A stretch of DNA of 32,804 nt, taken from NCBI GenBank assembly GCA_028288625.1, contig JAQBNI010000027.1:1-32804 (forward strand). Direction: 5' to 3'. This document shows positions 429 through 19,389 of this stretch, piece by piece; position 1 is the stretch's first letter, and each line of letters opens with the position of its first letter. The position numbers and the translations under genes were made by a program. The stretch is from Bacteroidota bacterium. GTDB taxonomy: Bacteria > Bacteroidota > Bacteroidia > Chitinophagales > JADIYW01. The notes under the pieces were generated by a model. It was given only the letters and a program-made list of their open reading frames with translations. It had not been told where the DNA came from and made no database searches.

Positions 429-449
429 AGAAAAAAGTCCACAGTTATC

Positions 450-542
450 GGATCACAGTTCACAGTAAGAATTCACAGATATTGATTCATTATTCACATG
501 TATAATTAATCACAATATTCCGTGAACGGTGAACCGTCATCC
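450..542. repeat. Iterated-word spacer with complementary arms
   Basis: The dcd/response-regulator spacer holds short iterated words: CACAG several times on the left (438-480) and CCGTGAAC-like words on the right (520-549). The left arm 450-466 and the right arm 526-542 are reverse complements at 14 of 17 positions, enclosing about 59 bases. No ORF lies inside. The arms could pair in a minus-strand transcript. The function is unknown. Confidence 0.5.
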
Positions 543-551
543 GTGAACCTT

Positions 552-1259
552 TTACGCCATCTGGTTTTCTACAAGCTTGTAACCTTGTCCGTGTATATTC
601 AAAATCTGCAAGCGCTCATCATCCCTCAGGTATTTCCTGATCTTTGAAATAAATACATCCATGCTGCGCGCTGTGAAATAGCTATCGTCCTGCCAAACGT
701 GCTTAAGCGCCAACTCTCTTTCGAGTATCTGGTTTTTCTTTTCAAAAAACAAGCGCAGCAATTCATTTTCTTTTGTTGTCAGCTTGATCTCATTTCCTTT
801 CACATATAATTTGTGATTTTTATAATCGAGCCTTGTATCTCCCGCAGTGTATTCATCCAGTGCTGCCTGCACTTCGTGCTTTTCCGTTCTGCGAAGGATT
901 GCATTCATTTTCAATTCTAAAATTTCCATACTGAACGGCTTGGTAATATAATCATCCGCGCCCAATGTTAATCCTCTTATCTTATCTTCTTTCAGCGATT
1001 TCGCCGTGAGAAAAATAATCGGAACTTCCTTATCGTCTCTCCTGATCTCTTCAGCAACGGTGAACCCGTCTTTCTTCGGCATCATCACATCCAGCAAAAT
1101 AATATCATACTTATTTTTTCTGAATGCAAATAATCCTTCCACGCCATCGCGCTTCAGTTCCACTTCAAAATTTTTATGCTTGAGGTACTCCTGCAGTAAC
1201 ATCCCCAGGTTCGGGTCGTCTTCTACAAGTAAAACTTTCTTTTTAATTGTTGTGTTCAT
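552..1259 (-). CDS. OmpR-family response regulator
   Basis: This is a 235-residue two-component DNA-binding regulator. The receiver domain (about 8-120) has the acidic pair D14-D15, the phosphoacceptor D57 in LLDVMMPKKDG, T85 in FLTAK and K107 in ITKPF. The C-terminal half (about 135-232) is an OmpR/PhoB winged helix, with TTKENELLRLFFEKKNQ and a recognition-helix region SMDVFISKIRKYL. It lies 30 bases downstream of the histidine kinase on the same strand, so the two are almost certainly one operon and a cognate pair. The target genes and signal cannot be read from the sequence. Length and motifs are normal for the family. Confidence 0.95.
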   Translation of the reverse strand: MNTTIKKKVLLVEDDPNLGMLLQEYLKHKNFEVELKRDGVEGLFAFRKNKYDIILLDVMMPKKDGFTVAEEIRRDDKEVPIIFLTAKSLKEDKIRGLTLGADDYITKPFSMEILELKMNAILRRTEKHEVQAALDEYTAGDTRLDYKNHKLYVKGNEIKLTTKENELLRLFFEKKNQILERELALKHVWQDDSYFTARSMDVFISKIRKYLRDDERLQILNIHGQGYKLVENQMA

Positions 1260-15487: not shown

Positions 15488-15585
15488 CACTTTTAAAATT
15501 AGATTATCTTTAAATAAATTGTATTTTTCTTATCAGAAATTAAAAATAAGTAGATATTGGTGTATTTTCGCAATAATTCTAAATA

Positions 15586-16917
15586 ATGATGAATTTTTTA
15601 ACCGTAATCCAGATCCTCCTGTTTATTGGCTTAGTTGGCGGCTCTTTTTTTGTAGCGATCCGTAAATTCAAAGAAATTTATGACAACGTAAATAAAGGAA
15701 GACCCGAACACATTCCATCTACTTTTTTCTTCAGGTTAAAAAGCATGCTACTGATTGCATTCGGACAAAAGAAAATGTTCAAGCTTACTTTTCCTGCATT
15801 CCTGCATCTTGTAATTTATGTTTCATTCGTGATCACACAAATTGAGCTGATAGAAATTTTTATTGATGGATTCACCGGCAATCACAGAATATTATACCAC
15901 GCATTTGAAGGAAACGCATTAGAAAAGCTATATGTATTTGTCATCAATTTTATCGAGATCTTATCGCTGTTAACTTTCTTTGTTACTATTCTTTTTATTT
16001 TACGGCGAACAACATTTAAAGTACGACGTTTTCAAATGCCTGAATTAAAAGGATGGCCATGGAAAGATGCATTGCTGATCCTTGCTTTTGAGCTCACATT
16101 GATCATTTTTATTTTTATGATGAACTCGGGAGACAGCGCATTGGAAATGAAAGAACACGGCAAAGATTATGGTTTCTTGTTGAGCGGACTTTTTGGAAAC
16201 ATGCTTACAGGTTTGCCAAATGGTGCTTTGTTTTTCATAGAAAAAACAGGATGGTGGGGACACTTATGTATGGTAATGACGTTCCTGGTTTATCTTCCTT
16301 ATTCAAAGCATTTACATATCCTGTTAGCTTTTCCGAATACTTATTTCACACGACCTGAACCGAAAGGTGAAATACACAATATGCCGGCGATCATGCATGA
16401 AGTCACATCGATGATCGATCCGAGTTATAAAGTTCCTGCGACTGACGGCGAAATAAAATTTGGTGCGAAAGACGTGTACGACCTTTCCTGGAAAAGCTTG
16501 CTCGATGCATATTCGTGTACGGAATGCGGGCGATGCACTGCAGCTTGTCCTGCAAATATTACGGGCAAAAAATTATCTCCGAGAAAAATTATGATGGATA
16601 CGCGCGACAGAATGGAAGATCTCACAAGGGGAAGAAAATTACACGGACCTGATTTTACGGATAATAAAAGTTTGCTCGGAGATTATATTACGAAGGAAGA
16701 ATTGCGTGCGTGCACAACCTGCAATGCGTGCGTGGAAGAATGCCCGGTGAGTATTAATCCATTGACGATCATTTTAGAGCTGAGAAGAAATATGATCATG
16801 GAAGAAGCGGATTCTCCTCCTGAATGGAATAATATGTTTTCGAATATGGAAAACAACCAGGCACCGTGGCAATTTTCTCCAAGCGACCGATTGAATTGGG
16901 CGAATGAAATGAATTAG
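15586..16917 (+). CDS. Membrane Fe-S oxidoreductase with two [4Fe-4S] motifs (HdrC/GlpC-like)
   Basis: This 443-residue protein has about five or six N-terminal hydrophobic helices (1-250), resembling the cytochrome-b-like NarI domain, with scattered histidines. A ferredoxin-type domain follows: C311-x2-C314-x2-C317-x3-C321 and C376-x2-C379-x2-C382-x3-C386. Such proteins pass electrons between a soluble partner and membrane quinone. The partner is very likely the CCG-domain protein encoded at 17361, with an S23 gene between them. The physiological donor is unknown. The last sense codon and the TAG stop form part of an inverted repeat whose other arm lies after the S23 gene. Confidence 0.9.
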   Translation: MMNFLTVIQILLFIGLVGGSFFVAIRKFKEIYDNVNKGRPEHIPSTFFFRLKSMLLIAFGQKKMFKLTFPAFLHLVIYVSFVITQIELIEIFIDGFTGNHRILYHAFEGNALEKLYVFVINFIEILSLLTFFVTILFILRRTTFKVRRFQMPELKGWPWKDALLILAFELTLIIFIFMMNSGDSALEMKEHGKDYGFLLSGLFGNMLTGLPNGALFFIEKTGWWGHLCMVMTFLVYLPYSKHLHILLAFPNTYFTRPEPKGEIHNMPAIMHEVTSMIDPSYKVPATDGEIKFGAKDVYDLSWKSLLDAYSCTECGRCTAACPANITGKKLSPRKIMMDTRDRMEDLTRGRKLHGPDFTDNKSLLGDYITKEELRACTTCNACVEECPVSINPLTIILELRRNMIMEEADSPPEWNNMFSNMENNQAPWQFSPSDRLNWANEMN

Positions 16918-17337
16918 AGAATTGGATGATTGTAGAATTATAGAATACTAGACATGAATACTAAATCAAAATTTGCGGATGAGTTAAAACAAAGAACCAA
17001 GAAATTTGCCGTGGATTCAATTCATCATTTTAGAAAGCTGCCAAAAACAGATGAAGCAAGAATAATAGGAAAACAATTTTTAAGATCGGCGACATCAGTT
17101 GCAGCAAATTATCGGGCAGTCTGCAGGGCAAGAAGCGATGCGGAATTCTATTCAAAATTATGTATCGTCGTTGAAGAAATAGATGAAACCGTTTTATGGT
17201 TAGAAATAATGGAAGAATCTGATATTGCCCAATCCAAATCCTTACTTAAAGAATCAGATGAACTCATGAGAATATTATCTGTTTCAAAGAGTACTGTTTC
17301 ATCCAAACTAAAGCCTTAATTCTACAATTCTCTAATT
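16912..17337. repeat. Inverted repeat bracketing the S23 gene
   Basis: The right arm, 17317-17337, is a 21-base sequence overlapping the TAA stop of the S23 gene. Its reverse complement equals the left arm, AATTAGAGAATTG (16912-16924) plus TAGAATTA (16933-16940), except that the left arm has eight extra bases, GATGATTG (16925-16932). The left arm overlaps the TAG stop of the upstream Fe-S gene. Pairing of the arms in mRNA would loop out the S23 ORF and bring the two Fe-S genes within about 25 bases of each other. The arms also belong to the iterated-word class of spacer sequence. Confidence 0.7.
16954..17319 (+). CDS. S23/Avd-type four-helix-bundle protein
   Basis: This 121-residue, wholly helical protein belongs to the S23 (23S rRNA intervening-sequence protein) family. 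It carries the family signature FLRSATSVAANYRAVCRARS followed by FYSKLCIVVEEIDETVLWLE. Relatives are encoded inside intervening sequences of 23S rRNA in several bacteria, and Avd proteins of diversity-generating retroelements share the fold. No reverse transcriptase or template/variable repeats are present here. It sits between two Fe-S genes that otherwise look like one operon, and it is bracketed by an inverted repeat. Its function is unknown, and its base use does not stand out by eye. Confidence 0.92.
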   Translation: MNTKSKFADELKQRTKKFAVDSIHHFRKLPKTDEARIIGKQFLRSATSVAANYRAVCRARSDAEFYSKLCIVVEEIDETVLWLEIMEESDIAQSKSLLKESDELMRILSVSKSTVSSKLKP

Positions 17338-17360
17338 AACCAATTCAACAATTATAAAAC

Positions 17361-18146
17361 ATGCAATACAAAGTTCCTGTGATGAGTGAAATGGTAGCGG
17401 AAGGAAAAATTCCTGATGTAGTATTCTGGATCGGTTGTGCAGGCAGTTTCGATCAGCGCGCACAGCGTGTAACCATTGCTTTCACAAAAATTCTAAATCA
17501 GCTTCAAATTAATTTCGCTGTGCTCGGCACGGAAGAAGCATGCACCGGCGATCCTGCAAGACGTGCGGGAAATGAATTTATTTTCCAGATGCTCGCACAG
17601 CAAAATGTTGCGACACTAAATAACTATGGCGTAAAGAAAATTGTATGCACTTGCCCGCATTGTTTCAATATCATCAAAAATGAATATCCGCAATTAGGAG
17701 GTAATTATGAAGTGATTCATCATTCTCAATACTTGCAGCAACTACTGAATGAAGGAAAATTAAAAGTGGAAGGAGGAGTATTTAAAGGCAAGCGAATTAC
17801 CTATCACGATTCCTGTTATCTCGGAAGAGCCAACGGAATTTATGAAGCGCCGCGTGACGTAATTGAAGCGCTAGATGCCGATCTTGTGGAGATCAACAAA
17901 TGCAGGACCACCGGTTTATGCTGCGGCGCAGGCGGCGCGCAGATGTGGAAGGAAGACGAGCCCGGCAGAAAACGCATCAACGAAGAACGCACCGAACAAT
18001 TGATGGAAGTATATCCTGATATTATTGCAGTAGCGTGTCCTTACTGCAACACGATGATCACGGATGGCGTAAAAGGAAAAGAAAAACAAGACGATATAAA
18101 AGTGGTAGATATTGCGGAACTAATTTCCAAAGCCAATAGTTATTGA
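17361..18146 (+). CDS. CCG-domain Fe-S oxidoreductase subunit (HdrB/GlpC-C/LutA-like)
   Basis: This 261-residue soluble protein has two cysteine-rich CCG-type modules. The first has C26, C61 and CTCPHC (96-101). The second has DSCYLGR (C152), LCCGAGG (C187-C188) and ACPYC (226-229). The set is typical of subunits that bind unusual [4Fe-4S] clusters, as in heterodisulfide reductase HdrB and the C-terminal half of GlpC. Together with the membrane ferredoxin protein at 15586 it forms a full HdrC-HdrB-like unit, here probably quinone-linked. The ATG lies 24 bases past the inverted-repeat arm. Confidence 0.9.
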   Translation: MQYKVPVMSEMVAEGKIPDVVFWIGCAGSFDQRAQRVTIAFTKILNQLQINFAVLGTEEACTGDPARRAGNEFIFQMLAQQNVATLNNYGVKKIVCTCPHCFNIIKNEYPQLGGNYEVIHHSQYLQQLLNEGKLKVEGGVFKGKRITYHDSCYLGRANGIYEAPRDVIEALDADLVEINKCRTTGLCCGAGGAQMWKEDEPGRKRINEERTEQLMEVYPDIIAVACPYCNTMITDGVKGKEKQDDIKVVDIAELISKANSY

Positions 18147-18152
18147 ATACGG

Positions 18153-18239
18153 TATTAAGTATTGCGTAGTGCGTATGAACCAATATGATATGTTTTACCA
18201 ATAAAAAAATATTGAATTAAGAATACCCAATACTAAATA
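18153..18239. repeat. Iterated-word spacer with complementary arms, no ORF inside
   Basis: In the 128-base spacer after the CCG gene, 18153-18168 (TATTAAGTATTGCGTA) and 18224-18239 (TACCCAATACTAAATA) are reverse complements at 14 of 16 positions and enclose 55 AT-rich bases. A second, shifted pairing exists between GTAGTGCGTA (18166-18175) and TACGAACTAC (18245-18254), 9/10. The rest is iterated ACTAAAT/ACTAACT words. No gene or RNA was recognised in it. Confidence 0.5.
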
Positions 18240-18274
18240 CGCTGTACGAACTACTAACTACTAAATTCAAGATT

Positions 18275-18763
18275 ATGCTTACTCCCTACCATATCATGCC
18301 TGAAACTTCGAAAGTCTGGGTCTACCAGGCAAACCGCAGTTTTACGCAGGATGAAGTCTGGGACATCAGCGATATTCTCGAGAATTTTGTAGATCAATGG
18401 AAATCACATCAGCGCGAAGTAAAAGGCTACGGCTCCCTTTACTACCGCCGTTTTTTAGTCTTGATGGCGGATGAAGATGCAACGGATGTCAGCGGTTGTT
18501 CTATCGACAGTTCCGTTAAGCTCATCCGCGAACTGGAACAGGCATACGACCTTAATTTTTTTGACAGGATGAAAGTCTGTTATAAAATTACAAAAGATCT
18601 TATCGGCAGTTTTCCTCTTCCAAAATTAAACGAAGTTATAGAAAGCGGAAAGATCAACGATGATACCATCATCTTTAATAATCTCGTATCCACAAAAAAA
18701 GAATTTGAAAGCAGCTGGGAAATTCCTTTTAAAAATTCCCCGTTAGCGAAACTCGTTATTTAA
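18275..18763 (+). CDS. Conserved-type Bacteroidota protein of unknown function
   Basis: This 162-residue cytosolic protein has no signal peptide or membrane helix. Similar proteins in Bacteroidota are sometimes labelled ABC transporter ATPase, but no Walker A, Walker B or signature motif is visible, so that label is not used here. The visible pattern is SKVWVYQANRSFTQDEV, WKSHQREVKGYGSLYYRRF and a cysteine in SGCSIDSSVKLIRELE. ATG 18275 is the first start; a second ATG lies seven codons in (MPETSKVW) and is equally plausible. It follows an iterated-word spacer and probably starts its own transcript. Confidence 0.82.
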   Translation: MLTPYHIMPETSKVWVYQANRSFTQDEVWDISDILENFVDQWKSHQREVKGYGSLYYRRFLVLMADEDATDVSGCSIDSSVKLIRELEQAYDLNFFDRMKVCYKITKDLIGSFPLPKLNEVIESGKINDDTIIFNNLVSTKKEFESSWEIPFKNSPLAKLVI

Positions 18764-18789
18764 CCAACTTTTTTTACTATTTTAGCTAC

Positions 18790-19389
18790 ATGCGAATTAA
18801 GATTCTATACCTGCTGATCGCTATTTTATTGATTTCAAGTTGCGCAAGACCTTATCGTAAAATAAATATTTCTTCTATTCCCTTTAAAGAAAATCGCGAA
18901 GAATTCAACATTAGTTATTCTGTTCGCCAGGGCGTTTTATACAACATGAAGGATTTCTTTTATGCAAAAAAGGAAATGAAAAAAAACATGAGCCTGATTG
19001 CCTTTAAGATCGTCAATAAATCAGAATTGCCTTTAAGGGTCAGCGATCTCCAGTTTTCCTGCGGCGCATCGGTACCTATTGCTCCAATTAAAGTAGATGA
19101 ATTTTACAACGAGTTAAAACAAAAAGCCGCATTGTACTGGTTGTATTCTGTAGGCGTAATGCCTTTCAGAAGAGGTCCGGCAAAACCATGGATCTATCTT
19201 CCGTTCGGAATTGTGATGGCAGGCGCAAATTTTGGTATCGCCTATCGCGCCAATAAAAAATTCAAAACCGATCTGAATTTATTAGACCTGACCAACAAAA
19301 TTATACAGCCCGGTGATAGCATCCGCGGTGTATTGCCTTTCAAAAATGTCGCTAACTGCGGAGATATTTTTATCACTAAAAGAGAATAA
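18790..19389 (+). CDS. Small lipoprotein of unknown function
   Basis: This 199-residue protein begins with a lipoprotein signal whose lipobox is LISSC, with the cysteine at residue 18. After it comes a beta-rich region (SYSVRQGVLYNMKDFFYAKKEMKKN is cut here at landmark level: SYSVRQGVLYNMKDFF). A hydrophobic stretch (about 129-155) contains RGPAKPWIYLPFGIVMAGA and could be a membrane or barrel segment. No family was recognised. It lies 26 bases after the preceding gene and six bases before the DUF3817 gene, so the three may be co-transcribed. A weak promoter-like TATTTTAG sits four bases before the ATG. Confidence 0.8.
   Translation: MRIKILYLLIAILLISSCARPYRKINISSIPFKENREEFNISYSVRQGVLYNMKDFFYAKKEMKKNMSLIAFKIVNKSELPLRVSDLQFSCGASVPIAPIKVDEFYNELKQKAALYWLYSVGVMPFRRGPAKPWIYLPFGIVMAGANFGIAYRANKKFKTDLNLLDLTNKIIQPGDSIRGVLPFKNVANCGDIFITKRE

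Follow-up and report, generated by a model that had tools for sequence, protein, structure and literature searches.

What is a gene for an S23-family protein, bracketed by complementary sequences, doing inside an operon of iron-sulfur protein genes? The question arises from a 32,804-nucleotide (nt) stretch of DNA from a Bacteroidota bacterium (hereafter the window), in which such a gene separates two genes for HdrC-like and HdrB-like proteins. An earlier note, made from the DNA letters alone, had suggested an intervening-sequence-like cassette in an mRNA that is either mobile or processed out. We find that an arm-gene-arm S23 cassette recurs at many operon junctions across Bacteroidota and resembles mobile inserts that until now were described chiefly in rRNA genes. 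With somewhat better than even confidence, we favor the view that the protein-coding operon of the window harbors a mobile cassette resembling an intervening sequence, whose transcript would form a stem cut by RNase III.

An S23 gene between complementary arms

The window is contig C67 of a 3.7-Mb draft genome (G000), and the cassette and its two neighbors are arranged as follows.

15586 to 16917, plus strand: upstream gene, HdrC-like Fe-S protein (open reading frame with Fer4 families; orthologs in 8 of 8 genomes of the genus)
16891 to 16953, plus strand: left arm, 8-nt quasi-tandem repeat (alignment, controls, period of 8)
16954 to 17319, plus strand: S23 / four-helix-bundle protein, 121 amino acids (PF05635, TIGR02436; AlphaFold2 model)
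17317 to 17348, plus strand: right arm, reverse complement of the left arm, starting within the S23 stop codon
17361 to 18146, plus strand: downstream gene, HdrB-like protein with two CCG domains (PF02754)

Five repeat units of the left arm, at 16911 to 16918, 16919 to 16926, 16927 to 16934, 16935 to 16942, and 16943 to 16950, read GAATTAGA GAATTGGA TGATTGTA GAATTATA GAATACTA, and the stop codon of the upstream gene (TAG, 16915 to 16917) falls within the first of them. The arms lie where the earlier note had placed them and carry the letters it gave. Its “8-base insertion in the left arm” is likewise present in the letters, but this insertion is one unit of the quasi-tandem repeat. A repeat search extended the inverted repeat to 16910 to 16940 and 17317 to 17347 (81% complementary, 376 nt apart), and the best gapped alignment pairs 16891 to 16940 with 17317 to 17348 at a score of 18.7. 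In the predicted fold of the cassette, 30 left-arm bases are paired with the right arm. A search of Rfam gave no match within 15500 to 18800. The flanking genes resemble HdrC and HdrB in the domains that they encode (4Fe-4S dicluster and CCG), in agreement with the HdrC-HdrB-type unit proposed earlier, but they fall below the curated cutoffs of the NCBIfam HdrC and HdrB models.

Complementary arms at S23 loci across the phylum

We assembled 217 S23 loci, nearly all of them from Bacteroidota, by combining a sample over the phylum with two whole genomes, named GTDB genomes, and other fetched loci. A locus was called armed if the complementarity score of its arms was at least 13, a threshold at which weakly armed loci stay uncounted. 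The earlier note had looked to other S23 genes for the same bracketing, and most of them have it: 72% of the 217 loci reach this score with their own arms, compared to 5.7% of mismatched left and right arms, although the counts are not independent because S23 loci share ancestry. For the first 109 loci, 72% were armed, compared to 4.5% for mismatched arms and 7.6% for 421 other genes.

The window's genome has eight full S23 loci and one fragment. Of 33 distinct S23 loci from the genus, most have complementary arms directly at the gene, and the sequences of these arms are locus specific, with units such as AGTCGTA, TTTGCAG, GTCAATA, and AATTAGCG. Scores for a locus's own arms are at least 15 for 23 of the 33, and the 95th percentile for 1056 cross pairs is 13.7. 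Two loci in the window's genome are irregular. One (L001, on contig C35) has well-paired AGTCGTA arms but an in-frame TGA within the S23 match and is perhaps a decaying cassette; on contig C109, about 2.6 kb separate a truncated piece of S23, itself with heptad arms, from a complete cassette (L009, L006). Beyond Bacteroidota proper, S23 loci were found in Ignavibacteria (L188, L219) and Balneolota (L231), and the metagenome bins with loci L220, L229, and L243 could be mis-binned.

What the arms have in common is their period. The best period is 7 nt in 119 of 157 armed loci and 8 nt in another 33 (together, 152 of 157), and arm autocorrelation peaks at lags of 7, 14, and 21 and less strongly at 8 and 16. 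Left arms of 78 armed loci are rich in G and poor in C (G 0.22, C 0.083), a bias that is mirrored in the right arms. Copies of an insertion sequence or a miniature inverted-repeat transposable element (MITE) have conserved end sequences, but here the arms differ at every site and mismatched S23 arms fit no better than other genes do, the sole sequence-sharing exception being a recent pair (L152/L156) described below. We also considered that the 7- or 8-nt period serves to put stop codons in all frames; this idea was weakly supported (326 stop codons in left arms versus 276 expected) and was set aside.

These data bear on whether the window arms are simply a chance inverted repeat or a pair of terminators, an explanation favored by the AT richness of the region and the repetitive nature of the arms. 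None of 300 dinucleotide shuffles matched the window's arm score (maximum of 14.7), and in 430 combinations of one window arm with an arm taken from a different S23 locus the score never exceeded 14.2, versus 18.7 for the window's own pair. Mismatched arms and other genes also score lower, the window arms are hundreds of nucleotides apart, and arms with a 7- or 8-nt period recur at S23 genes. The shuffle, mismatched-arm, and other-gene controls thus refute this explanation, to which we attach practically no weight.

Gain, loss, and exchange of the cassette

If the arms and the S23 gene form one unit, close relatives might carry or lack them together. Among eight genomes of the genus, the HdrC/HdrB junction is empty in five, has a small S23-less hairpin in one (G001), and has an S23 cassette in two (the window's genome and G004). 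The spacers of the empty sites are too diverged to align for a target-site duplication. A complete genome (G040) offers a second case, where two S23 genes (L152 and L156) are 78% identical and their flanks are unrelated; L152 follows an alpha-amylase-like gene and L156 an sppA-like gene (both named by eye from translations). Homology between the two starts at the left arm (agtgagaggtgagacg) and stops at the right arm. In the genus of this organism, the sppA junction is found in three states, which are empty (27 to 59 nt), occupied by a heptad hairpin without S23 (72 to 107 nt), or occupied by a cassette (454 to 471 nt), and the amylase junction also has empty, hairpin-only, and S23-cassette states. 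The precise presence or absence among close relatives by which the earlier note proposed to judge its idea is therefore seen in both genera. Its claim of a mobile cassette gains support from this pattern, as it does from the arm-to-arm homology of L152 and L156.

Exchange at shared sites was assessed with pairs of loci whose flanking genes have 65% identity or more. Of 52 such pairs with S23 identity of at least 60%, 40 have conserved arms; of 42 pairs with S23 identity below 50%, none do. For example, the fadB/fadA neighbors of the cassettes in Flavobacterium fluvii and Flavobacterium sp. 245 (L174, L240) are 92% identical, while the S23 proteins are 43% identical and the arms are unrelated. 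In 238 of 255 pairs, the two arms of a cassette match each other (mean score of 18.8) better than they match same-side arms of other species at the same site (10.2).

From the empty, hairpin, and S23 states, the L152/L156 pair, and the exchange of arms at shared sites, we conclude that gain, loss, or exchange affects the arms and the gene jointly, as a single cassette. Sequence comparison thus identifies arm, S23 gene, and arm as the mobile unit, and mobility of the cassette appears well supported. In general form, this unit comprises one S23 gene between a left arm built of quasi-tandem repeats of 7 or 8 nt and a reverse-complementary right arm. Because the arms of a cassette match each other far better than same-side arms of other species at the same site and show hardly any compensation in close orthologs, they look as though they are inherited for a time and then replaced along with the S23 gene, rather than maintained by base-by-base covariation.

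Insertion sites

Armed cassettes are on the same strand as both neighbors in 126 of 147 cases, and the median start of their left arms is 1 nt before the upstream stop codon ends. Since a cassette starts at the upstream stop codon, between codirectional genes, its DNA is added without breaking a reading frame, and the element occupies short junctions of this kind. This choice of site may be explained by survival, in that an insert between two genes would do little harm.

Sites supported by NCBIfam models include fadB/fadA, fadA/acyl-CoA dehydrogenase, nuoC/nuoD, sucB/lpd, nuoJ/nuoK, sdhA/sdhB, sufB/sufC, and a two-piece metH. At the metH site (L004, on contig C149 of the window's genome), the S23 cassette sits precisely where the N-terminal part of MetH (model positions 1 to 338) ends and the remainder (339 onward) begins. 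The site of L057, named by eye as atpF/atpH, proved to be wrongly assigned.

Some sites are common to many lineages, with fadB/fadA shared by 33 S23 loci. This recurrence, together with the strong purifying selection on S23 described below, is what might be expected of a settled regulatory gene, whose product would bind the hairpin of its own mRNA and regulate the operon, with the arms as operator. However, the cassette is present or absent among close relatives, the host operons are unrelated, S23 and arms are exchanged at the same site, and the arms are different everywhere. We therefore consider a regulatory gene of this kind improbable.

The S23 protein

The S23-family identity given in the earlier note is secure. 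The window protein matches PF05635 of Pfam (E value of 4.8e-13; 49.7 bits, with a curated cutoff of 33.8) and TIGR02436 of NCBIfam (E value of 1e-21; 77.2 bits, with a curated cutoff of 24). Its AlphaFold2 model is a four-helix bundle (predicted local distance difference test [pLDDT] score of 92.8), and the closest folds are the S23 structures 2rld and 2gsc, with template modeling (TM) scores of 0.81/0.87 for 2rld. The sequence is divergent, with 79% identity to the G004 ortholog and 15 to 27% to other aligned S23 proteins. The ratio of nonsynonymous to synonymous changes (dN/dS) is 0.127/2.03 for the window and G004 pair and has a median of 0.09 over 55 same-site pairs, indicating strong purifying selection. 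Conservation of the protein implies that S23 has a function. PF05635 is homologous to the retroelement protein Avd (PMC10053308), and the fold that the two have in common suggests that S23 probably binds nucleic acid of the element.

The folds of Avd (4dwl) and of the retroelement complex 8ub7 match as well, weakly by E value, and raise the possibility of a system resembling a retroelement, whose arms would be rewritten by a reverse transcriptase together with an Avd-like S23 protein; turnover of the arms with the cassette would fit such a system. Yet PF00078 reverse transcriptases were not found in seven of the eight genomes of the genus, the window's genome included. We therefore rejected an Avd-like or diversity-generating retroelement, and regard any system of this type as very improbable.

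Predicted RNA pairing and proposed processing

Folding predictions for 53 cassettes have the arms paired in 38, and the window's genome encodes an RNase III. Base pairing of the two arms in the transcript is predicted to form a long stem whose loop contains the S23 message, an arrangement like that of 23S rRNA intervening sequences. We infer that RNase III would most likely cut the stem and excise the S23 RNA from the mRNA at the arms, leaving the flanking genes to be translated from the pieces. No 23S rRNA gene was found in the draft assembly of the window's genome.

Several observations weigh against a mobile cassette whose RNA is processed in this way. About a quarter of S23 genes have no detectable arms, including some subfamilies (L005/L029; L053/L056/L075) with potentially other roles. 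Target-site duplication is not evident at L152/L156. Furthermore, G-U mismatches are not more common in the arms than A-C mismatches (67 versus 79), giving no strand-specific RNA-pairing signal, and the arms of close orthologs have 5 compensatory versus 111 one-sided changes, with 470 conserved positions. Given that G-U is not above A-C and compensation is rare, selection on RNA pairing is not demonstrated.

L053, L056, and L075 are S23 genes without clear arms, possibly reflecting a different use of S23; L053 and L075 are in the same gene context, with a long overlapping open reading frame in another frame. L005 and L029, from two genomes of the genus, are longer, armless S23 variants with a C-terminal extension.

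S23-less hairpins

Inverted repeats with the same period but no S23 gene also occur, one of them directly after the HdrB-like gene.

18152 to 18240, no strand assigned: S23-less hairpin of 7-nt GTATTAA-like repeats (GTATTAAGTATTGCGTA / GTATTTAGTATTGGGTA), with a score of 12.0 and a period of 7 at 0.62

This hairpin, a weaker feature, looks like an element of the same type in its hairpin-only state. Another S23-less inverted repeat, at window positions 433 to 553 (7-nt period, score of 13.2, gap of 14), adjoins a minus-strand response-regulator gene. S23-less hairpins with a 7- or 8-nt period number 48 per Mb in G040, compared to 0 to 10 per Mb in seven other genomes, and over these eight genomes their density has no clear relation to S23 copy number. 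A 400-kb region of G040 (C1, 4600001 to 5000000; L275 to L294) has 19 intergenic inverted repeats with this period, 18 of which have loops too short for S23. We interpret these repeats as a lineage-specific expansion of hairpins of varied sequence.

The abundance of such hairpins in one genus is among the points favoring an element that is mobile at the DNA level only. Its arms would be ends used as DNA hairpins (cruciform or single stranded), its transcript would not be specifically processed, and S23 would be an accessory to mobility. The absence of a strand-specific pairing signal and the fact that the arms travel with the S23 gene are consistent with this account. However, the cassette carries no transposase, recombinase, or reverse transcriptase, no target duplication was seen, and the sense orientation is strongly preferred in operons, although selection after insertion could cause that preference. 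We judge a purely DNA-level element to be credible but unlikely, and continue to favor a mobile cassette whose transcript would be processed at the arms.

Implications

S23 proteins are common, with TIGR02436 present in 114 genomes of a phylum-wide sample of 148, yet they are without a known function. How rRNA intervening sequences originated and what they do has been called unclear (PMC4990558). Should S23 cassettes be mobile units whose heptad ends are self-complementary, the rRNA cases would be the small visible part of a larger family that resides mostly in protein operons, and origin, mobility, and protein function would become testable in culturable Flavobacteriia, Sphingobacteriia, and Cytophagia. 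A more far-reaching reading, which we offer tentatively as a real possibility, is that these cassettes represent a widespread class of mobile elements without conserved end sequence, whose ends are defined only by their complementarity to each other and a period of 7 or 8 nt. Such elements would carry S23 through the operons of Bacteroidota and settle at stop codons, with rRNA intervening sequences as one special location, and the Avd-related protein would act on the hairpins by a copying mechanism.

Comparison with known systems

In repetitive extragenic palindromic (REP) elements with REP-associated tyrosine transposase (RAYT) genes, inverted palindromic repeats lie on both sides of a gene, and copies lacking the gene occur in other intergenic regions, a layout shared by S23 cassettes and S23-less hairpins. 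The two systems differ in that S23 is no transposase and in that the ends of S23 cassettes have only period and complementarity in common. Intergenic TAACTGA heptamers have been described in Beggiatoaceae, Cyanobacteria, and some Bacteroidetes, with no mention of S23 (PMC4679880). These are likewise 7-nt tandem repeats located between genes and near start codons, but they consist of one fixed direct heptamer without S23, whereas S23 cassettes have many different heptamers in inverted pairs around a gene. Diversity-generating retroelements are linked to S23 through the Avd protein of BPP-1 (4dwl; PMC10053308), which has a four-helix-bundle fold and is homologous to PF05635. Unlike in those systems, neither the surroundings of the cassette nor the window's genome contains a reverse transcriptase, a template repeat, or a variable repeat.

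Descriptions of S23 cassettes in protein operons were not found in the literature searched, which covered no preprints and few subscription journals, and their novelty is thus provisional. Within rRNA genes, the S23 protein domain occurs in 16S and 23S inserts of candidate phyla radiation (CPR) bacteria (PMC11270868), and 23S intervening sequences with an S23 open reading frame are also present in Leptospira and Brucella (PMC4990558). The best point of comparison is the 23S rRNA intervening sequence of Coxiella burnetii (PMC4990558), which has an S23 open reading frame, a 28-bp terminal inverted repeat, and, before S23, tandem GACAGAT heptamers whose number varies among strains. The two differ in host, which is an rRNA gene in Coxiella and two protein genes of an operon here. 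Moreover, the Coxiella reading frame is decaying and was judged not to be expressed (PMC4990558), whereas S23 is under purifying selection here, and excision by RNase III is proven there (PMC4990558) and inferred here. Heptamers, a local detail in the Coxiella intervening sequence, are a general feature of S23 cassettes. The two are alike in size (428 to 444 nt there and about 410 to 460 nt here), in having a single S23 open reading frame, in complementary ends that form a stem, in presence or absence between relatives, and in tandem 7-nt repeats by the S23 start. With tandem heptamers beside S23 in Coxiella as well (PMC4990558), 23S rRNA intervening sequences resemble the cassette more closely than the earlier note had claimed.
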